Below are positions 3,682 to 47,840 of a stretch of DNA of 64,000 bases, piece by piece. How positions within the stretch are numbered: position 1 is the stretch's first letter; every line of letters starts with the position of its first letter. The translations under genes were made by a program, and so were the position numbers. Source of the stretch: Fusobacteriales bacterium. Lineage in GTDB: Bacteria > Fusobacteriota > Fusobacteriia > Fusobacteriales > Fusobacteriaceae. The stretch spans positions 1 through 64,000 of the forward strand of contig JAICDD010000013.1 of NCBI GenBank assembly GCA_020063625.1, given 5' to 3'. The notes beneath the pieces were generated by a model that had not been told where the DNA came from, did no database searches, and saw only the letters and a list, made by a program, of their open reading frames with translations.

Positions 3682-4800
3682 ATGAATAAGCTTATTGATA
3701 TATTAAATTTTTCTACAGAATATTTAACAAAAAAAAATATTTCAAATCCTAGATTAAATGCTGAAAAAATCATTTCAGAAGTTTTAGGACTAGATAGAAT
3801 TATGCTTTATGTACATTTTGAAAGACCTATAAATAACGAAGAAAAAGAAAAAATAAAATCTCTTTTAAAAGAGATTTCTACAAATAATCAATCTGAAAAT
3901 TTTAATACTAAAAAAAATTCCAATATTCTATCAAAAAATAATTTTAAAGAAAAAAATAGCTTTATTTTTAATGAAAGTATAGAATATTTAAAAAAACATA
4001 ATATTCAAAATGCTAAATTAGAAGTAGAACTTATTTTTTCTCATATTTTAAAAATTAATAGAATGTTGTTATCATTAAATTTTAATAAAGAAATTAGCAA
4101 AGAAAATTTAGATAAAATAAAAATTTTATTAAAAAAACGTGCTAAAGAAAAAATTCCAATACAATATTTATTAGGATACGAAGAGTTTTATGGCTATAAA
4201 TTTAATGTAAATAAACATGTATTAATCCCTAGACCTGAAACAGAATTATTAGTAGAAGAGTGTATTAAACTTTTAGGTGAAGTAAAAGAACCTAAAATAT
4301 TAGATATTGGAAGTGGTAGTGGTGCTATATCAATTACTCTTGCAAAAGAATTACCAAATTCTAAAGTAATTGGAGTTGATATTAGTGATGAAGCATTAAA
4401 AGTAGCTGAAGAAAATCGTATATTAAATAATTGTGAAAATTTAAAATTTATAAAATCTAATGTTTTTGAAAATATTAAATATAAAAGTTTTGATTTAATA
4501 GTTTCAAATCCCCCTTATATTCCAGATTATGAATATGCAGAATTACAGCCAGAAGTAAAACTTCATGAACCTAAATTAGCTCTTGTTGCTGAAAATAATG
4601 GATATTTCTTTTATGATAAAATATCTAAAGAAGCAATAAATCATCTCAAAAATGATGGAATTCTTGCATTTGAAATGGGATATAATCAAAGTGAAAAGAT
4701 AAAATCATTTTTAGAAAGAGATAAATATAAAAATATTATAATAAAAAATGATTATAACAATATACCTAGAATGATATTTGCGAAAAAAGGAGAAATTTAA
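3682..4800 (+). CDS. prmC: Release factor glutamine methyltransferase with duplicated N-terminal domain
   Basis: 372 residues, against about 280 for typical PrmC. The enzyme N5-methylates the Gln of the GGQ motif in release factors using S-adenosylmethionine. The catalytic domain is normal: DIGSGSG at 208-214 binds SAM and NPPY at 276-279 binds the target Gln. The extra length comes from a second copy of the substrate-binding helical domain. Residues ~1-66 ([20 protein letters not shown], then [13 protein letters not shown]) and ~95-155 ([20 protein letters not shown], then [13 protein letters not shown]) align over their whole length, joined by a polar Asn/Lys-rich linker. The gene is coupled to queA through TAATG. 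Confidence 0.93.
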
Positions 4801-5825
4801 TGGATATAAAAGATTTTGATTATTATCTACCAGAAGAATTAATAGCACAAACACCTATTAATCCAAGAGATAATTCAAGACTTATGATAGTAGATAAAAC
4901 TAATAAATCAATTGAACATAAAATATTTAAAGATATTATAGATTATCTTAATCCTGGTGATGTATTAGTTAGAAATTCAACAAAAGTTATTCCTGCTAGA
5001 CTTATTGGAAAAAAAGAGACAGGTGGTGTATTAGAACTCTTTTTATTAAAAAGACTTGATCTAAACAAATGGGAAGTACTTTTAAAACCTGCAAAAAAAT
5101 TAAAGCTTGGACAAAAATTATATATTGGTGAAGCTAATGAATTGGTTGCAACTTTACTTGAAGTAAAAGAAGATGGAAACAGAATTGTGGAATTTAAATA
5201 TGATGGAATCTTTGAAGAAATTTTAGATAAATTAGGTGAAATGCCTCTTCCACCATATATAAAAGAAAAATTAGAAGAACAAAATAGATACCAAACTGTT
5301 TATGCTCAAAAAGGAGAATCTGTTGCAGCTCCTACAGCTGGACTTCATTTTACAAAAGAATTATTACAAAAAATAGAGGATAAAGGAATTGAGATAGTAG
5401 ATATATATTTAGAGGTAGGTTTAGGTACATTTCGACCAGTGCAAACAGATAATATATTAGAGCATAAAATGCATAGTGAATTTTTTGAAATTCCTGAAAA
5501 AGCTGCTAATATTATAAATAAAGCAAAATCTGAAAATAGAAGAATTATTGCTGTAGGTACTACAAGTGTACGTACTTTAGAGTCTTCTGTTGATGAAAAT
5601 GGAAAAGTTATTGCTCAAAAAAATGATACAGAGATTTTTATTTACCCTGGTTATAAATTTAAAATAGTAGATGCATTAATTACTAATTTTCATTTACCAA
5701 AATCTACATTGCTTATGTTAGTATCTGCATTTTCAAATAGAGAATTTATGATAGATACTTATAAAAAAGCTGTTGAAAATAAATATAGATTTTTTAGTTT
5801 TGGAGATGCTATGTTTATAAAATAG
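4800..5825 (+). CDS. queA: tRNA preQ1(34) S-adenosylmethionine ribosyltransferase-isomerase
   Basis: 341 residues, normal length for QueA. It transfers and isomerises the ribosyl part of SAM onto preQ1 at the wobble position of GUN tRNAs to give epoxyqueuosine. Family motifs visible are [14 protein letters not shown] at the N-terminus, [26 protein letters not shown], and [12 protein letters not shown] near residue 255. It overlaps prmC by one base. The de novo preQ1 genes of the same pathway lie 38 kb away (queC/folE/queE/queD). No tgt is seen nearby. Confidence 0.96.
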
Positions 5826-6081: not shown

Positions 6082-6600
6082 ATTTAGCCACGGAAAACAC
6101 GGATTTAAAAATTACACGAAGAACACAAAGATTGAAAAACAGAACCACAAAGAAAAAGGCTTGGAACCACAAAATGAACACAGGATAAAAAAATTAGTGA
6201 AAAGTAAGGAGTAAAATAAAAAAATCAACACAGAGGAACAGAGTAATCAGAGTATCGCAGAGAAAATAAAAATTAGCCACGGATCTGATGTAAGTCTCGT
6301 GTGAATCTCGTGGTTTCAAAAAAAATACTTAGTGGTCCTTAGTGCTTTTCTTAGTGCCCTTTGTGTAACAAGAAAATCCTGTGTGTCATCCTGTGTAAAT
6401 CCCGTGGTTTCAAAATAAAACTCTGTGTATCTCAGTGTGCCCAAAGTCTCTGTGCTGAATATTATATCCCGTGATTTCAAAAAAATACTTAGTGGTCCTT
6501 TGTATTTTTCTTAGTGCCCTTTGTGTAACAAAAAATTAGAGTTCATTTGTGTAATTCGTGACAAAAAATCCCGTGTGAATCACGTGGTTTCAAAAAATTT
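6082..6600. repeat. Mosaic intergenic repeat block (~520 bp)
   Basis: No gene is supported here. Bases 6086-6270 hold words in one orientation (AGCCACGGAAAACACGGATT, TTACACGAAGAACACAAAG, AACCACAAAG). Bases 6285-6600 hold them in the other orientation and in tandem: TCGTGGTTTCAAAAA, ACTTAGTGGTCCTTAGTGC, AGTGCCCTTTGTGTAACAA, each occurring two or three times with changes. The second half is the inverted counterpart of 14526-14726. G+C is clearly above that of flanking DNA. The block ends at the ribosome binding site of the next gene. Confidence 0.85.
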
Positions 6601-8725: not shown

Positions 8726-9952
8726 ATGTCAAATCTAAATAAAACTCCTACTGCAAATAGATTGCATATTGCAATATTTGGTAAAAGAAACATGGGAAAA
8801 TCTACTCTTATTAATGCTCTTACTAACCAAAATATCGCTATTGTATCAGATTATGCTGGTACAACTACCGACCCTGTTTCTAAAGCAATGGAAATACTTC
8901 CTATTGGACCTTGTGTAATAATTGATACTGCTGGTATTGATGATGTAGGAGAGCTTGGAAATCTTAGAATACAAAAATCTATTGAAGTAATTAAAAAAAC
9001 AGATATAGCTTTATTAGTAATAGATTATAACGGTTTCAATGATTTTGATTATAAAATAATGGAACTTTTAAAAGAAAATAATACAGAATTTATTATTGTT
9101 ATAAACAAATCAGATATTCAATCTATAAATAAAGAATTTAGAGACACTTTAAATAATTATAAATATATTGAATTATCTGCAAAAAATAAAACTAAAATTA
9201 GTGAATTAAAAGAACTTATAATAAAATATTCACCTAAAACTTTTGAACAACCTTCAATTTTAGGTGATCTTATTTCTCCAGGTGATGATATTGTCCTTGT
9301 AATTCCTATTGATACTGGTATGCCAAAAGGACGGCTTATTTTACCTCAAGTACAAACAATAAGAGATATCTTAGATAATGATGGAATTATTCATATAAGT
9401 AAAGAGCGTGAGCTTCGTTGGACTTTAGAAAATCTTAAAAGAAAACCAAAATTAGTAATAACCGACTCACAAGAATTTGCAAAAGTTAGTGCTGATACTC
9501 CAGATGATATATTACTTACATCTTTTTCTATACTTTTTGCTAGATATAAAGGAGATTTATTTGAATTAGTAAAAGGAGCTAAAGTACTAAAAAATTTAAA
9601 GCCAAATGATAAAGTTCTTATTGCTGAAGCTTGTACTCATCATGCTCAACCTGATGATATTGGTAAAGTGAAAATCCCTCGTTGGATAAAACAAAACATA
9701 GAGCCAGAAGTAAAATTTGAATTTTGCTCTGGAAGAGATTATCCAGAAAATCTTACTGAGTATAAATTAGTTATTCATTGTGGTGGTTGTACATTAAATA
9801 GAAAAGAGATGCTTAGTAGAATAGAAGCTTCTACAAAAAATGGAGTACCTATAATAAATTATGGACTTTGCATTGCTACAATTCATGGAATTCTTGATAG
9901 AGCATTAAAACCATTTGAAGAAGTTTACTTAGAATGGCTTGATTCAGAATAA
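8726..9952 (+). CDS. hydF: [FeFe]-hydrogenase H-cluster maturation GTPase HydF
   Basis: 408 residues. HydF is the scaffold on which the 2Fe subcluster of [FeFe]-hydrogenase is assembled and delivered to HydA. It has an N-terminal Era-like GTPase domain (P-loop GKRNMGKS at 19-26, DTAG near residue 72, NKSD) and a C-terminal iron-sulfur domain with the three invariant cysteines: C303 in ACTHHAQ, and C352 and C355 in HCGGC. HydE, HydG and the hydrogenase are not in the window. Its presence points to hydrogen metabolism in an anaerobe. It sits between ispA and ruvA in one close-packed operon. Confidence 0.96.
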   Translation: MSNLNKTPTANRLHIAIFGKRNMGKSTLINALTNQNIAIVSDYAGTTTDPVSKAMEILPIGPCVIIDTAGIDDVGELGNLRIQKSIEVIKKTDIALLVIDYNGFNDFDYKIMELLKENNTEFIIVINKSDIQSINKEFRDTLNNYKYIELSAKNKTKISELKELIIKYSPKTFEQPSILGDLISPGDDIVLVIPIDTGMPKGRLILPQVQTIRDILDNDGIIHISKERELRWTLENLKRKPKLVITDSQEFAKVSADTPDDILLTSFSILFARYKGDLFELVKGAKVLKNLKPNDKVLIAEACTHHAQPDDIGKVKIPRWIKQNIEPEVKFEFCSGRDYPENLTEYKLVIHCGGCTLNRKEMLSRIEASTKNGVPIINYGLCIATIHGILDRALKPFEEVYLEWLDSE

Positions 9953-9970
9953 TTTTAAAAGGGGAATTTT

Positions 9971-10573
9971 ATGTACGAATACTTATTTGGAAAAATAGTA
10001 AAAAAAAGAGTAGATTCAGTAATTTTAGATATAAATAATATTGGATATAAAGTCTTTATCTCTTTAAATACATATGAAAAAATAAAAGATGATAAAGTTA
10101 AACTATATATTTATTCACATATAAGAGAAGATGCTTATGTTTTATACGGTTTTTATAGTGAGACAGAGAGAGATTTTTTTGAAAAATTAGTAAATATAAG
10201 CGGTGTAGGTCCAAAGCTTGCAATAGCTATATTATCTACATTTACTGTAAAAGATTTAAAAACAATAATATATAATAATGATATAAATTTATTAAAAAAA
10301 GTCCCTGGACTTGGACCTAAAAAAGCTCAAAAATTAATATTTGAAATACAAGATAAAATTGATTATAAATTTAGTCTTGAAGAAAATTTTGAAACAAAAG
10401 ATAGTATTCATATTAATAATTTAAAAGATGATATTTATTTAGCAATGGAATCTCTTGGATATAATAAAAAAGATATTGATAAATTTATTGATTCTACAAA
10501 AATAAATAATTACACTTCTATTGAAGAAGCAATAAAAGATATATTAAAAACTATTCAGAATAAAAAAAGATAG
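9971..10573 (+). CDS. ruvA: Holliday junction branch migration protein RuvA
   Basis: 200 residues, normal length. RuvA tetramers bind Holliday junctions and recruit the RuvB motor. The order is OB-fold (residues 1-64, MYEYLFGKIVKKRVDSVILD), two helix-hairpin-helix motifs (NISGVGPKLAIAIL and VPGLGPKKAQKLIFE), and the C-terminal RuvB-binding domain after a short linker (MESLGYNKKDID). AAAAGGGG precedes the start. ruvB and ruvC are not adjacent. Confidence 0.95.
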   Translation: MYEYLFGKIVKKRVDSVILDINNIGYKVFISLNTYEKIKDDKVKLYIYSHIREDAYVLYGFYSETERDFFEKLVNISGVGPKLAIAILSTFTVKDLKTIIYNNDINLLKKVPGLGPKKAQKLIFEIQDKIDYKFSLEENFETKDSIHINNLKDDIYLAMESLGYNKKDIDKFIDSTKINNYTSIEEAIKDILKTIQNKKR

Positions 10574-14525: not shown

Positions 14526-15045
14526 AAGTCACGAATTACACGAATGAACTCGAATTTTTTGTTACACAAAGGGCGCGAAGAAAAGCTCTAAGAACCACGA
14601 AGTTTTTTGAAACCACGGGATTTACACAGGATGAAACACAGAATTTTCTTGTTACACAAAGGGCACGAAGAAAAGTACTAAGGACCACTAAGTATTTTTT
14701 TGAAACCACGAGATTCACACGAGATGATAATCTGTGTTTATCTAGTAGTAATCTTGTGGTTCCATAATTCTTTTCCCTTTGTGGTTCTGATTTTTTTCTC
14801 TTTGTGTTCTTCGTGTAATTTTTTCTTCGTGCTAAATTAAATCCGCGTTATTCCGTGGCTAATTTTTATTTTCTCTGCGATACTCTAATTACTCTGTTAC
14901 TCTGCGTTGATTTTAAAATTGCTATCACTTTTTACTATCCACTATAATTAGTATTATTTATGATTCTAGATTATTTTCTCTTTGTGGTTCTGATTTTTTT
15001 ATCTTTGTGTTCTTCGTGTAATTTTTCTCACTATTTTTTCCTAAA
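14526..15045. repeat. Mosaic intergenic repeat block (~520 bp)
   Basis: Fills most of 14445-15128, which has no gene. Bases 14530-14725 hold two tandem versions of a ~95-bp unit (TTACACAAAGGGCRCGAAG, AAACCACGRGATT) and match 6285-6560 in inverted orientation. Bases 14750-15030 hold the TTTGTGGTTCTGATTTTT and TTTGTGTTCTTCGTGTAAT words twice, plus AATCCGCGTTATTCCGTGG. The open frame here is a repeat translation. Confidence 0.85.
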
Positions 15046-42354: not shown

Positions 42355-43026
42355 TTATTTATTTAAAAATCTTTGTTCAAATTCTTCATAACCTTTTTTT
42401 CTTAGTACACATGAAGGACATTCTCCACATCCATCACCTTTTATTCCATTATAGCAAGTAAGTGTATCATTTTTTATAATATCTAATACTCCTAATTCAT
42501 ACGCCATATTCCATGTTTCAGCTTTATCAAGCCACATTAAAGGAGTTTCGACTACAAATTGATAATCCATAGCAAGATTTAGTGTAGTATTTAATGATTT
42601 TATAAAATGATCTCTGCAATCTGGATATCCACTAAAATCACTTTGTGATACTCCTGTAATTATAATATTTATATCTCTTTGTTTTGCAAAAACTGCTGCA
42701 AAAGTAAGAAAAATCATATTTCTACCATCAACAAATGTATTTGGAATTCCATCAACTTCACCTTTTGGTACATTTACATCTACTCTAGTAAGTGCATTTG
42801 GAGCTAATTGATTTAATAAACTCATATCTAATATATGATGCTCTATATTATATTTTTTAGTTATCTCTTTTGCACATTCAAGCTCTAATTTATGTTTTTG
42901 TCCATAATCAAATGAAAGAGCTATTACTTCTTTATACTCTTTTTTTGCTTTAAATAAAAGTGTTGTACTATCTTGACCACCACTAAATACAACTACTGCT
43001 CTATCTTTATTTATTCTTTCTTTCAA
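42355..43026 (-). CDS. queC: 7-cyano-7-deazaguanine synthase QueC
   Basis: 223 residues. QueC uses ATP and ammonia to convert 7-carboxy-7-deazaguanine to preQ0. The PP-loop motif is [15 protein letters not shown] near residue 11, and the zinc site is the C-terminal cysteine set [20 protein letters not shown]. The start is TTG at 43026, 9 bases after AGGAGG. A ~600-bp repeat block separates it from folE in the same orientation, so it may be transcribed separately from the riboswitch-led genes. Confidence 0.96.
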
Positions 43027-43081: not shown

Positions 43082-43620
43082 AGATTTTTATCACGGATTT
43101 TTGGTTACACAAAGTACACGAATTTTTATATTTTTTCAGCACAGAGACACAGAGAACACTAAGCTACACAGAGTTTTTATATTTTTTGCCACGGATTGGT
43201 TACACAAAGAACACGAAGAAAACCATTGAGAACCACTAAGAATTTTCTCTTTGTGGTTCTATTTTTTTCTCTTTGTGTACTTCGTGCATTTTTTTTCTAT
43301 TTCGCCTTTGGCGACTTACTTTTTTAAAGATAAAAAAGTAAGCAAAAAATCTTTGCGCTAGTTTCTACGGATATTGATTTTCTATAACTGCATTTTTATT
43401 TAATTTTTAAGTTTTCTCTATTATTCTCTTCTAGTCTATTTTTTATTCTGGGTTTATCTGCATTAATCTTGTAGTTCTTAATCTTTTCTCTTCGTGGTTC
43501 TGTTTTTCTATCTTTGTGTTCTTCGTGTAACTTTTTTAAATCCGCGTTTTTCCGTGGCTAATTTTATTTATTAATTTTTCTATCATATGATAATCTGTGT
43601 TTATCTAGTGGTTCCAAATT
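43082..43620. repeat. Mosaic intergenic repeat block (~540 bp)
   Basis: Fills the gap 43027-43631, with no gene supported. Words include GGTTACACAAAGTACACGAA, CACAGAGACACAGAGAACAC, TTTGTGGTTCTATTTTTT and a TCCGCGTTTTTCCGTGG element. It also contains the 78-bp palindromic element at 43312-43389. Confidence 0.85.
43312..43389. repeat. 78-bp palindrome-bearing repeat, copy 1
   Basis: Matches 47547-47624 at 76 of 78 positions in the same orientation. It contains the hairpin CTTACTTTTTTAAAGA with its partner AAAAAAGTAAG, then CTTTGCGCTAGTTTCTACGG. Confidence 0.9.
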
Positions 43621-43631
43621 TTTTCTTTATT

Positions 43632-44210
43632 TTATAACATTGACAATAAATTATTTAATAACTCTTTATCCTCTTTAAATTTCCCTCTAAGAGTTGTAGT
43701 CAAAGTTTTAGTTCCTGGTTTTTTTATACCTCTTGTTGTCATACAAGCATGTTCTCCTGTTATAATTACTGCTACATCTTCTGTTTCAGTAATTTTTTGC
43801 ATAATCTCTGCTATATCTTTACCGATTCTTTCTTGTAATTGTGGTCTTCTTCCTACCATATCAGCTATTCTTACTACTTTACTTAATCCAATAATTTTTT
43901 CTTTTGGAATATAAGCTACTGCTACTTTCATATTATACATAAGTGCTAAATGGTGTTCACACATAGAAAAAATCTCTATATCTTTTAATAAAACCATATC
44001 TTTATTATTTTCTATATAACAATCTTCTTCATCAAATGTTACCCCAAACATTTCAGCTATTTCATCATTTGTATATTTTAATCCTTCAAATATCTCTTCA
44101 TACATTCTAGCTACTCTCATAGGTGTTCCTTGCAGTCCCTCTCTTTCAGGATTTTCACCTATTAATTTCAGTATTTCTTTTACATGATATGCTATTTTTT
44201 CTTTATTCAT
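43632..44210 (-). CDS. folE: GTP cyclohydrolase I (FolE type IA)
   Basis: 192 residues. It converts GTP to 7,8-dihydroneopterin triphosphate, the first step shared by folate and queuosine synthesis. Zinc and active-site motifs are [35 protein letters not shown] and [11 protein letters not shown]. The zinc-binding Cys of CEHH is present, marking type IA. Its place six bases after queE shows that here it serves the queuosine pathway. Confidence 0.96.
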
Positions 44211-44216
44211 AGTATT

Positions 44217-44885
44217 TTATACCCCTCTTTCTTCAGGATTCCATATAATTTTATGCATTTGCATTTGTAATCTTACATTATTTAATTTGTACTCTTTCAT
44301 AAATTCTACTATATCTTTTGCTTCTATCTCATTAAATACAGGACTAAAATATATTTTCCCCTCTTTTATATGATTTTCTATTATATTTTTTGCTCTAATA
44401 AGATCATAATTACTTCCTACAACAAATTTTATAGTGTCTTTATGTGTTAATTTATCAAAATTTTCAACTTTCATAAACTCTTCCATTTTACTTGTTGGTA
44501 ATTTATAATCCATAGTAATGTGTACTTTTTCTCTATTTACTTTATCTAATTTTGATAAATCTATACTTCCATTTGTTTCTATTTCAATATTTATATTATT
44601 TTTTATAGATAATATATCTTCTATAATCTCATCAATATTTTCTTGTAAAAGAGGTTCTCCTCCTGTTATAGTAATATTTTTGACATTATACATATTTATA
44701 TCATTTTTTATATCTTCTATTGTTATATAAATGGTATCTACATTTTCTTCATTTGCCCACATTGTATCACAATAACTACATTTTAAATTACAATTTGGAA
44801 ATCTAATAAATAAACTAAGCTCTCCTGATCTTTGTCCTTCACCATTTATACTAATAAATTTTTCTACTATTTTATATTGTTTCAT
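44217..44885 (-). CDS. queE: 7-carboxy-7-deazaguanine synthase QueE
   Basis: 222 residues, radical SAM enzyme that contracts 6-carboxytetrahydropterin to 7-carboxy-7-deazaguanine. The cluster motif is CNLKCSYCD (CxxxCxxC) near residue 33, and SINGEGQRSGELSLFIRFP is the family N-terminus, followed by ITGGEPLLQ. It is 2 bases downstream of queD and 6 bases upstream of folE. Confidence 0.96.
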   Translation of the reverse strand: MKQYKIVEKFISINGEGQRSGELSLFIRFPNCNLKCSYCDTMWANEENVDTIYITIEDIKNDINMYNVKNITITGGEPLLQENIDEIIEDILSIKNNINIEIETNGSIDLSKLDKVNREKVHITMDYKLPTSKMEEFMKVENFDKLTHKDTIKFVVGSNYDLIRAKNIIENHIKEGKIYFSPVFNEIEAKDIVEFMKEYKLNNVRLQMQMHKIIWNPEERGV

Positions 44886-44887
44886 TT

Positions 44888-45304
44888 TTACTCCTCGTAA
44901 ATAGCACTATTATTTGGCGTTTCATATACTGTTACTCTTTTTACATCAAAATTTTTTTTAAATTCATTATAAAAATATTTTGAAAAATTTTCTGCCGTAG
45001 GTCTAAAATCTACTTCTATTATTCTAAAATTTTCTGCTACTAACATATCAAAAAGTGCTTTACTTAAACTATTTTTTTCTACTATTAATGCATGGTCATG
45101 AAAATCTACAAATTCTTTTACAACTTTTTTAAAGTCTCCAAAATCTACTATCATCCCTCTAAGATGTCCCTCTTCTACTAATTCATTTGATTTTATCTCT
45201 ACTACTACTCTCCATCTATGTCCATGAATATTAGCACATTTACCATTATATCCTTTTAAAAAATGTGCACTATCAAAACTATGTTCTGTTTGTAATATAT
45301 ACAT
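44888..45304 (-). CDS. queD: 6-carboxy-5,6,7,8-tetrahydropterin synthase QueD
   Basis: 138 residues. It converts dihydroneopterin triphosphate to 6-carboxytetrahydropterin. The zinc and catalytic residues stand in FDSAHFLKGYNGKCANIHGH (His, catalytic Cys, HGH), with MIVDFGDFKKVV and the DHALIVE region following. It starts 47 bases after the activase gene and is packed tightly with queE. Confidence 0.96.
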   Translation of the reverse strand: MYILQTEHSFDSAHFLKGYNGKCANIHGHRWRVVVEIKSNELVEEGHLRGMIVDFGDFKKVVKEFVDFHDHALIVEKNSLSKALFDMLVAENFRIIEVDFRPTAENFSKYFYNEFKKNFDVKRVTVYETPNNSAIYEE

Positions 45305-45351
45305 ATTTTATTCTCCTTTTCTAAATACAATCTTTTACATTTTAAATTTAA

Positions 45352-46119
45352 TTATTCTTTTTCAAAAAAATTCATTCCATAATAACAACATCCAATAGCT
45401 CCATTAAATTGTGGTTCATCTAATATTAAAATGTTATTATAATCATTTTTTAGATACTCTTTTATTGCCTTATTTTTTGCTACTCCACCACTTATTATCA
45501 ATTCATCAGATAAAAATTTTGTAAGCATAGGACGAAGCCTTTTATACATAGAGTAATTTACTCCAGCACAAAGTACTTCAACACTATTTCCTTCAGCTAT
45601 TTTTCCAATTAATTCTGATTCAGAAAATACTGCACAAGTAGAATTAAGTTCTACTGGATTTATATAATGATTTGATAACTCATCTAATGATATTTCAAGT
45701 ACATTACTCATATTCTCTAGATATCTCCCACATGAAGCTGCACATTTATCATTTAAATCAAGGTCAGTAATTACACCTTTTTCTACTTTTATTATTTTTA
45801 CATCTTGTCCACCTACATCAAGTAAAATAAAATCTTTTTTATTTGTTTGATGTATAGCTCCATAAGCATGAGCTTTTATTTCATTAATTGGAGTAAACAT
45901 TTTCAAATCAGTATTATTTCTACCATATCCTGTAGATACTCCAATATCAATATTTTCTATACCTAGTTTTTTTAAATCAACTGTTATTTTCTCATCATAA
46001 TTACAATAATTTTTATAAAATTTAACTGTACTCATTTTAAATTTATCTACTATTTTATTATTTTCCATAAGCACAATTTTTACTTCTCTACTACCTAAAT
46101 CTATTCCTAAGATCCTCAT
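45352..46119 (-). CDS. Activase of a 2-hydroxyacyl-CoA dehydratase-like system (BadF/HgdC family)
   Basis: 255 residues. Family members are homodimeric [4Fe-4S] ATPases that inject one low-potential electron into a partner dehydratase. The ASKHA nucleotide motifs are LGIDLGSREVKIVLMENNK and ILLDVGGQDVKIIKVEKG. The cluster-ligand cysteines appear in NDKCAASCGRYLE and NSTCAVFSESELI. It overlaps the partner gene by 4 bases (ATGA type) and lies under the preQ1 riboswitch with queD, queE and folE. This places it in queuosine metabolism and not in amino acid fermentation. Confidence 0.92.
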   Translation of the reverse strand: MRILGIDLGSREVKIVLMENNKIVDKFKMSTVKFYKNYCNYDEKITVDLKKLGIENIDIGVSTGYGRNNTDLKMFTPINEIKAHAYGAIHQTNKKDFILLDVGGQDVKIIKVEKGVITDLDLNDKCAASCGRYLENMSNVLEISLDELSNHYINPVELNSTCAVFSESELIGKIAEGNSVEVLCAGVNYSMYKRLRPMLTKFLSDELIISGGVAKNKAIKEYLKNDYNNILILDEPQFNGAIGCCYYGMNFFEKE

Positions 46120-47117
46120 TTATTACCTCTCTTTTTTAAATCTAATAACATATCTAAAAATGCTTCTATTCTAAGCTTTGTTCTGGCATCTAGCTTATCA
46201 TCTTTATCTCCTTCAATATTTAATACAGGAATATTCAACCTATTTTTTATAATAATATCTTCCATTGCTCTATGGCAAAAACTTTGTGTATAATGTATTA
46301 TTCCGTCTAATTTTCTATCTTTTATCTGCTTTTCTAATTCTTGTATTCTATAATCTATATCATATGGATAAGTATAATCATAATATTGTTCATAAATATT
46401 GTCATATTTAGTTGCTCTAGGAAATGCAAATTCTCTTGGAACTTCATTATAGATTATCCTTGAATCAAATTTTTCTACAAATTCATGTAAATCACTAAAC
46501 ATTGTAGGAACTCCTATTAGTCCTAAATTTATTTTTTTTATATCTGGCGTTCTTTTTTCTATCTCTTCTAATTTTTCATCTAAAAATCTATCATATTTAT
46601 CTAAATCACCATCAAAATCACTTAAACAAAGTTGTGTAATATGATTTTCAAATCCACTTACTTTCCCTTCTAATGTTAATTCATCTATTTTTTTTGCTTT
46701 TTCTCTAATAATATTTATTTTGTTTCTTATATTTTCTACTTCTTCTATACTAACATTAAAAAGAGATATAAAGTTATCTATTTCTCTAGTTATATCCTCA
46801 ATTTTATGTGAATGTGGATAAGAAAATGGATAAAGCTTTATTCCTTTTTCTTTAAAAAGTTCTAATAATACTTTTGTATTTGAACAATCACCTTCTACTA
46901 CTGCTACTACCTCTTTTATTCCTTCTTTTATACATGCACTATAAATTCCTTTTATCCACGCACACATACTTTTGGGAAATCCATATTTTTCTGCATCATG
47001 TATATACTCTCTATAATCATCAGATACAATAAATGCATTATTTAAATCAACTACTTTATAACCTGCAGCTAATAATACTTCAATTGGTACAGTTGTAGTA
47101 ATTCCAATTTTTTTCAT
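46116..47117 (-). CDS. 2-hydroxyacyl-CoA dehydratase-like protein in the queuosine operon
   Basis: 333 residues of the HgdB/FldB/YjiM superfamily. It starts KIGITTTVPIEVLLAAGYKV and has three candidate cluster cysteines: SMCAWIKG near residue 52, VEGDCSNTK near 78 and SFCHRAMED near 284. True dehydratases usually have two such subunits; here there is only one, plus the activase. It is the first gene after a preQ1-I riboswitch and precedes queD-queE-folE. No fermentation genes (CoA transferase, electron-transfer flavoprotein) are nearby. A role as ATP-driven reductase in preQ1 or queuosine formation is inferred from context only. Confidence 0.88.
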   Translation of the reverse strand: MKKIGITTTVPIEVLLAAGYKVVDLNNAFIVSDDYREYIHDAEKYGFPKSMCAWIKGIYSACIKEGIKEVVAVVEGDCSNTKVLLELFKEKGIKLYPFSYPHSHKIEDITREIDNFISLFNVSIEEVENIRNKINIIREKAKKIDELTLEGKVSGFENHITQLCLSDFDGDLDKYDRFLDEKLEEIEKRTPDIKKINLGLIGVPTMFSDLHEFVEKFDSRIIYNEVPREFAFPRATKYDNIYEQYYDYTYPYDIDYRIQELEKQIKDRKLDGIIHYTQSFCHRAMEDIIIKNRLNIPVLNIEGDKDDKLDARTKLRIEAFLDMLLDLKKRGNK

Positions 47118-47148
47118 TTTATCTACTCCTTAAATTTCTACAAAAATC

Positions 47149-47174
47149 AAAAAAAGGATAGACTTTGCCTACCC
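47149..47174 (-). terminator. Expression-platform terminator of the preQ1 riboswitch
   Basis: Minus-strand GGGTAG-GCAAAGT-CTATCC (one G-T pair) followed by TTTTTTT, 31 bases before the start codon at 47117. A competing pairing of GCTTTG (just before it) with CAAAGT in the loop could form when preQ1 is absent. Confidence 0.85.
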
Positions 47175-47182
47175 TAACAAAG

Positions 47183-47226
47183 CCCTAGTTTTATTTATAG
47201 ACAGGATGGTGCAACTGAACTGTCTT
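47183..47226 (-). ncRNA. preQ1-I riboswitch aptamer
   Basis: On the minus strand AGACAG (47225-47220) and CTGTCT form the 6-bp P1 stem. The loop is TTCAGTTGCACCATC. The A-rich tail ATAAATAAAACTAG follows, in which AACT can pair with AGTT of the loop to make the H-type pseudoknot. Size, order and the A-rich tail match class I preQ1 riboswitches. It precedes a terminator, so preQ1 is expected to switch the operon off at transcription. Confidence 0.87.
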
Positions 47227-47244
47227 ATTTAATTTCAGGAAATA

Positions 47245-47273
47245 ATTATATCATAATTTTAAAAAATTGTAAA
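47245..47273 (-). promoter_or_regulatory. Promoter of the riboswitch-controlled queuosine operon
   Basis: TTTACA (47273-47268), 17-base spacer, TATAAT (47250-47245) on the minus strand. The expected transcription start is about a dozen bases before the aptamer P1 stem. Confidence 0.8.
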
Positions 47274-47329: not shown

Positions 47330-47840
47330 CCGGTGTTTATCTATACTAATCTAAGATGTTTTTCGTAGAAAAATATCGAAAGCTGTGCCCGTAGTTCCTA
47401 TTATTTTCTTTGTGGTTCTCTTTTTTTACCTTTGTGTTCTTCGTGTAATTTTTAATCCGTGTTTATCCATGGATAATTCTTACTAATTTTTCCATCTTGT
47501 GTTTATATGTGTATATCTAGTGGTTCCTAATTTTTTCGCTTATCAGCGACTTACTTTTTTAAAGACAAAAAAGTAAGCAAAAAGTCTTTGCGCTAGTTTC
47601 TACGGATATTGATTTTCTATAACTCATTCATCTAATATACTCCGAAAAAGCGCTTTTTAAATTCTTCTTACTTCTTACTCTTAATTTCTCACTATTTTTT
47701 CTCTTTGTGTTACTTTGTGCCCTCTTTTCTTTGTGCTGAAAAATCCGCGTTTTTCCGCGGCTAATTTTAATTTTCAATTATTCATCTGTGTTGAGTTTTA
47801 ATTCTTCTCACTGCTTACTTCTTATTCTTCATTTCTCTAA
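47330..47840. repeat. Mosaic intergenic repeat block (~510 bp)
   Basis: Between the queuosine promoter and the symporter genes there is no gene, only repeat words: TTTGTGGTTCTCTTTTTTT, TTTGTGTTCTTCGTGTAAT, AATCCGTGTTTATCCATGG, AATCCGCGTTTTTCCGCGG. It includes the second 78-bp element at 47547-47624. Confidence 0.82.
47547..47624. repeat. 78-bp palindrome-bearing repeat, copy 2
   Basis: 76 of 78 bases are identical to 43312-43389, in the same orientation. The two differences are C for T in the hairpin loop and G for A just after the stem. Confidence 0.9.

Follow-up and report, generated by a model that had tools for sequence, protein, structure and literature searches.

The reduction of preQ0 (7-cyano-7-deazaguanine) to preQ1 in queuosine synthesis is the work of QueF, a T-fold, NADPH-dependent 7-cyano-7-deazaguanine reductase that binds its substrate covalently, as a thioimide, through a cysteine. 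To our knowledge, QueF is the only enzyme that reduces a nitrile to an amine. Reconstructions of the queuosine pathway take QueF as the marker of preQ0 use, for example in a published variant table (PMC6593275). Reduction of small molecules, among them acetylene, azide and hydrazine, is described for DCCP, an ATP-driven reductase (PMC11971306). Here we describe a pair of proteins of the superfamily to which DCCP belongs, encoded in a queuosine operon of a Fusobacteriales bacterium (assembly GCA_020063625.1, contig JAICDD010000013.1, positions 1 to 64,000; this whole stretch of 64,000 nucleotides is called the window). The pair consists of a reductase-like protein of the HGD-D family (DH; 46116 to 47117, minus strand, 333 aa) and a BadF/HgdC-type ATP-dependent [4Fe-4S] activase (ACT; 45352 to 46119, minus strand, 255 aa). 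We infer that the pair is, with high probability, an ATP-dependent [4Fe-4S] preQ0 nitrile reductase and a non-orthologous replacement of QueF, with DH as the proposed catalytic protein.

The distribution of the pair is complementary to that of QueF. An unbiased sample of 293 evenly drawn Clostridia contained 22 genomes with DH and 36 with QueF, and no genome held both. The 22 orthologs were recognised at E < 1e-60 and at least 46% identity; all other matches had E > 1e-14. More specifically, the 45 QueC-positive genomes of this sample divide into 20 with DH and 25 with QueF, with none carrying both and none carrying neither (Fisher p = 3e-13). QueC cross-matches below ~40 bits, which represent other PP-loop proteins, were excluded from this count, and one genome with an ambiguous divergent QueC-like match of 114 bits (G382), which has neither DH nor QueF, was left out. 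Because the genomes are related, a QueC tree was built, and the known DH or QueF states on it require at least four independent changes, all forced by well-supported branches.

The same exclusivity appears in whole genomes. A profile search for QueF (PF14489) gave no credible match in any of the 62 DH-carrying genomes, where the only matches were FolE-like at 21-27 bits. Such cross-matches, which span 21-32 bits over all searches and cover 58-70 positions in frames of mostly 186-225 aa, are FolE and were not counted. True QueF scored 75-124 bits over all searches, including 75-117 bits in the DH-negative relatives G005, G013, G017 and G038. Eight further Fusobacteriota (G002, G003, G007, G008, G010, G011, G012 and G039) lack DH, QueF and QueC and keep QueA; all of them except G012 also keep QueH, and they appear to be preQ1 salvagers.

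Furthermore, the pair and queF exchange places within one operon. Three members of the window's own family (G005, G013 and G017; loci L125, L147 and L148) carry the same aptamer motif that heads the DH operon, followed by queD-queE-folE-queC-queF, and the QueF of L125 was confirmed by Pfam. Five Clostridia (G303, G234, G241, G213 and G227) likewise combine this motif with the same gene order (loci L111, L112, L116, L129 and L131), and the QueC proteins of G303 and G234 are 67% identical to that of the window. The operon, and often the riboswitch, is the same and only queF and the pair are swapped; the two thus fill one functional slot.

The remainder of the pathway narrows down the step in question. 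Exactly one of QueG and QueH is present in 61 of the 62 DH genomes, QueA is likewise found in 61 and QueC in 53, and TGT was detected in all 16 DH genomes tested. With the QueG/QueH step covered and QueF absent, the missing step is the one from preQ0 to preQ1. In the window itself, queA (4800 to 5825, plus strand, profile match) lies apart from the operon, so the queuosine pathway runs on past preQ1, and TGT is encoded elsewhere in the genome.

Linkage to queuosine genes was assessed in a set of 80 loci, kept from 100 confirmed relatives after one genome per GTDB species had been searched. Most of these loci come from Clostridia, with some from Halanaerobiia-type and Fusobacteriia genomes. ACT adjoins DH in 80/80 loci, and all inspected loci contain a single HGD-D gene per operon. 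Queuosine genes accompany the pair frequently, with queC in 63 loci, queD in 59, queE in 58 and folE in 38. Given these counts and the conservation of the leader motif and terminator described below, the operon arrangement is far beyond chance. The preliminary description of this DNA had placed the pair in the queuosine route and proposed, among other roles, that it stands in for QueF; the linkage to queC, queD and queE supports the former, and the absence of QueF from all 62 DH genomes, the strict alternation in QueC-positive Clostridia and the operon swap strongly support the latter. The co-occurrence with queD and queE and anti-correlation with queF that it asked for were both found, and what it had named as speaking against the idea, intact queF and queG/queH with no co-occurrence of the pair with queuosine genes, is not what the genomes hold.

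DH was absent from 50,697 phage records and viral contigs, and carriage of the pair by phages was rejected accordingly. A search of a plasmid collection gave one match, the megareplicon of Ilyobacter polytropus. Clostridia also hold a more distant DH-ACT subgroup (46-49% identity; L117, L119 and L120 of G129, G224 and G159), near which there is a conserved gene of ~525-540 aa whose C-terminal part carries stalk-like repeats.

The leader of the operon, on the minus strand, combines a promoter, an aptamer and a terminator. A sigma-70-type promoter (TTTACA-17-TATAAT with an extended -10 TG, 11/12 consensus matches) lies at 47245 to 47273; shuffled sequence holds just as many promoter-like sites, which makes the promoter call alone weak evidence. 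It is followed by a 43-nt preQ1-I type I-like aptamer (47183 to 47225), AGACAG-TTCAGTTGCACCATC-CTGTCT-ATAAATAAAACTAGGG, that is conserved in DH leaders, and by an intrinsic terminator (47148 to 47175) made of a 9-bp hairpin (47175-47155, -10.3 kcal/mol) and U7. Terminator-like sites number 4 vs 0.2 expected. An antiterminator hairpin, GGGCUUUG...CAAAGUCU, is predicted at 47160 to 47185 (-10.4 kcal/mol); its 5' strand begins inside the 3' end of the aptamer and uses the terminal GGG of the latter. In the predicted folds of the window leader, terminator and antiterminator are mutually exclusive, and the leader is plausibly a transcriptional switch turned off by preQ1.

Across Fusobacteriia and Clostridia, the motif AGACAG-TTC(N)-ACCATC-CTGTCT-ATAAACAAAACTAGG is present in 76 of the 85 leaders of DH orthologs, and a terminator-like hairpin lies 3' of the motif in 76/76 of these copies. 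The motif is specific: in the 80 DH loci (2.42 Mb, both strands) it occurs only 75 times, each time on the sense strand and upstream of DH or, in split clusters, of queD. Compensatory changes (A-U, U-A, G-C) are seen at the first pair of P1. In its RNA form, AGACAG...ACCAUC-CUGUCU-AUAAACAAAACUAGG, the motif shows a P1 hairpin and an A-rich tail, and UC immediately precedes the 3' strand of P1, a feature given as diagnostic of type I among preQ1-I aptamers (PMC11625349). Rfam 15 (RF00522) searches of the window and of eight ortholog loci, with the threshold relaxed to E = 10 and without a positive control, gave no match, so that the model may be insensitive. The riboswitch assignment is therefore based on conservation, position and terminator architecture. 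That so well-conserved a set (the window aptamer and 76 leaders) goes uncalled by Rfam 15 suggests that the model misses a subtype. An opposite-strand gene of ~500 aa interrupts the cluster in some Clostridium loci (L060:8953, L063:7214 and L108:11564), where the preQ1-I motif is present a second time, ahead of queD.

Genomes without QueC place the pair within the pathway from another side. QueC is absent from eight DH genomes outside Fusobacteriia, and in seven of them DH-ACT adjoins a QueT-like or COG1738 transporter gene. In loci without de novo genes, QueT (PF06177) or COG1738/Vut_1 (PF02592) often directly follows ACT; the transporter genes were checked by Pfam in four loci (L081, L098, L093 and L107). 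These QueC-less genomes retain QueA, QueG or QueH, and TGT. The position of the pair beside transporters in genomes lacking QueC indicates that it acts downstream of preQ0, and such loci fit a route in which preQ0 is imported, the pair reduces it and the resulting preQ1 is used. One locus (L034 of G062) has DH-ACT and the riboswitch in a genome without queC and with no recognisable transporter adjoining.

DH belongs to the HGD-D/BCR-HAD-DCCP superfamily by domain, fold, cluster cysteines and neighbouring activase. DH matches PF06050 (HGD-D) at 134.6 bits, against a cut-off of 28.4, and ACT matches BcrAD_BadFG at 117 bits and TIGR00241 (CoA_E_activ) at 175 bits. The AlphaFold2 model of DH (pLDDT 89.9) retrieved DCCP (6eno, 7yyl), HadB (3o3n, also HadC) and BzdNO (8s02) in Foldseek, with E from 7e-15 to 1e-13 and TM of 0.7-0.78. 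For ACT, the nearest solved structures are HgdC (1hux) and HadI (4eht), at E ~1e-34. Across 93 aligned rows, Cys52, Cys78 and Cys281 of DH are conserved in 91/93, 93/93 and 93/93, respectively, and all three align with cluster ligands of DCCP. The extra cysteines of DCCP are not conserved in DH, which predicts a single [4Fe-4S] cluster with one coordination site left open. Cys62, which has no counterpart in DCCP, is nearly invariant (89/93 rows, 2 gapped) and might, as a guess, serve as nucleophile or relay. ACT keeps Cys126 and Cys162 in 82/82 sequences. The RefSeq label of the Ilyobacter copy of DH reads only '2-hydroxyacyl-CoA dehydratase'. One Ilyobacter-like genome holds an additional DH gene (62% identity; L028, G014:C4:822500-841500, positions 9436-10401), which has neither an adjoining ACT nor a riboswitch and is possibly a decaying or diverged duplicate.

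The operon, the architecture of the riboswitch, the alternation with QueF, the neighbouring pathway steps and the fold are read directly from sequences and counts. From these we propose a scheme whose substrate, stoichiometry, electron source, cluster type and one-electron chemistry we infer. PreQ0 would be supplied by QueC or imported by a transporter. ACT would accept single electrons from a reductant, with ferredoxin as a candidate donor, drive them to very low potential by ATP hydrolysis, and hand them to the [4Fe-4S] cluster of DH held by Cys52, Cys78 and Cys281. With four electrons, DH would then turn the nitrile into the aminomethyl group of preQ1, and the pair is expected to be oxygen-sensitive. 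The preQ1 formed would pass on to TGT, QueA and QueG or QueH. As product feedback, preQ1-bound aptamer would sequester the antiterminator's CUAGGG strand, which would let the terminator form and shut off the operon. Judged by their gene content, many oxygen-avoiding queuosine makers lack QueF, and all those sampled carry the pair, usually inside the queuosine cluster, where it very probably converts preQ0 to preQ1 by a different chemistry.

Four other roles were weighed against this. The pair could be a tRNA-preQ0 reductase, with the nitrile reduced not in the free base but once TGT has placed preQ0 in tRNA. Exclusivity with QueF would then look identical, and the conserved DH segments NEVQREFAFPR and YTYPYD carry basic and aromatic residues that could in principle bind nucleic acid. 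A leader that senses preQ1, however, is of use only to a cell that makes or imports free preQ1, and the same motif heads queF operons, which make free preQ1; we consider this role improbable. Alternatively, the pair could supply ATP-driven electrons to another queuosine enzyme, such as the QueE cluster or the cobalamin of QueG, while a separate enzyme reduces preQ0. ASKHA-type ATP-dependent activators of corrinoid proteins do exist (PMC6739815), and the pair is co-transcribed with queE. Yet it occurs in genomes with QueH and in genomes with QueG, persists in QueC-negative genomes without an adjoining queE, and is exclusive with QueF rather than with any electron donor; an additional preQ0 reductase would need the identical distribution, and an electron-supplying role is thus quite unlikely.

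The pair might instead take part in another salvage reaction, for instance the release of preQ1 from queuine-like compounds, with preQ1 taken from outside, as the QueT or COG1738 transporters adjoining some DH loci would allow. Against this, QueC is present in the majority of DH genomes and de novo genes in most loci, and making preQ0 that cannot be used makes no sense in the 20/20 sampled DH genomes that are QueC-positive and QueF-less, so that we regard a salvage role of this kind as very unlikely. Finally, deoxygenation of epoxyqueuosine in tRNA instead of QueG/QueH, a further proposal of the preliminary description, lies within the reach of the superfamily as a reductive deoxygenation and would suit the draft genome of the window, in which neither QueG nor QueH was seen. 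It is disfavoured to the point of being hardly credible, since the DH genomes with exactly one of the two enzymes include the congener G001, and it leaves the absence of QueF unexplained. As a replacement of QueG/QueH, the pair was rejected because all but one of these genomes already have such an enzyme. Reduction of preQ0 by the pair is by far the simplest reading.

Several points weigh against preQ0 reduction nevertheless. The function is assigned by gene association, which cannot separate free-base preQ0 from preQ0 inserted into tRNA. The genomes are not independent, so that the evidence amounts to at least four switches on the QueC tree and not to 45. The window's own draft genome (93.6% complete) matched neither QueG nor QueH, as the sole exception among the 62, although its congener G001 carries QueH. 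In the distant subgroup, three of ten members do not adjoin queC. A four-electron reduction with ATP spent per electron looks costly next to QueF with 2 NADPH. The superfamily members known to us act on CoA thioesters or small molecules, and we know of none that reduces a nitrile.

The remaining genes of the operon also lie on the minus strand. The reading frames of DH and ACT overlap by 4 bases, followed by queD (6-carboxytetrahydropterin synthase, 44888 to 45304, TIGR03367 above cut-off), queE (radical SAM 7-carboxy-7-deazaguanine synthase, 44217 to 44885, TIGR03963 at 291.6 bits with a cut-off of 260.1) and folE (GTP cyclohydrolase I, 43632 to 44210, profile match). The preliminary description had identified these five genes, the overlap and the three leader elements correctly, and had missed queC (preQ0 synthase, 42355 to 43026, profile match), the distal gene, which is separated from folE by ~600 bp of repeats. 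As folE and queC are direct neighbours in the congener locus L019, queC is counted as part of the cluster. This genome groups with Ilyobacter and Propionigenium relatives (Fusobacteriota). A dispersed intergenic repeat family flanks the operon and fills the gap between folE and queC (43200-43630 and 47400-47790), with further copies at 27-43, 6115-6131 and 14799-15018. One example, CACGAAGAACACAAAGG, has 9 matches with at most 3 mismatches vs 0.05 expected, and one 79-nt piece recurs in copies with 97% identity.

Our literature search, which did not reach most subscription journals or preprints and so is no proof of novelty, found no report that connects a dehydratase-like pair with queuosine. 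It is likely, with slightly less confidence than for the activity itself, that the pair represents a second, unrelated biological route from a nitrile to a primary amine: an ATP-driven, radical-capable nucleobase reductase with a single [4Fe-4S] cluster and a single BCR/HAD-superfamily subunit, outside CoA-ester chemistry, that has displaced QueF in a large part of the Clostridia and Fusobacteriota that make queuosine. If so, many members of both groups that are at present recorded as missing the step would be queuosine producers, and models of queuine supply in anaerobic communities such as the gut would change. The benzoyl-CoA reductase/DCCP superfamily would gain a clear biosynthetic, nucleobase-level reaction, and its chemistry, which in DCCP takes in azide, hydrazine and acetylene, would extend to the C-N triple bond; a new nitrile-reducing biocatalyst would become available.

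Compared with known systems, the pair resembles QueG and QueH in pathway, reductive character and Fe-S dependence; their folds differ from that of DH, and DH genomes almost always contain one or the other already. With the 2-hydroxyacyl-CoA dehydratases (HgdAB-HgdC, HadBC-HadI, FldBC-FldI) it shares the HGD-D and BcrAD_BadFG domains, the three cluster cysteines and the HadB fold. Unlike them, DH has no second subunit, is only ~15% identical, and is encoded under a preQ1 riboswitch among queuosine rather than amino-acid fermentation genes; a dehydratase of the HgdAB/HadBC type was dismissed, as these have two subunits and every inspected locus has one HGD-D gene. Class I benzoyl-CoA reductases (BzdNO-PQ, BcrCB-AD, MbdON-PQ) have the same fold, three-cysteine [4Fe-4S] site and ATP-driven activation, but possess two catalytic subunits where DH is one, and no CoA substrate is expected for DH. 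The active-site [4Fe-4S] of BzdO is held by Cys95/128/380 plus water (PMC11971306); its catalytic His131, at +3 from the second cluster cysteine, corresponds to Thr81 in DH.

The nearest solved fold and sequence are those of DCCP/DCCP-R (7yyl, 6eno), likewise an ATP-dependent reductase made of one catalytic gene and an activase. DH is ~20% identical to DCCP and, in contrast to it, lacks the cysteines of the second cubane, with no Cys at positions 22, 26 and 250. DH was rejected as a DCCP, as the six [8Fe-9S] cysteines are not all present and NF040772 scores 55 bits against a cut-off of 350. An assignment of the pair to QueF itself was likewise dropped, as DH and ACT match other families and show no PF14489 T-fold. 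In sequence and fold the Fe-S, ATP-driven pair is unrelated to QueF. In predicted step, in operon slot and often in its preQ1-I riboswitch it is the same, and the one replaces the other genome by genome.

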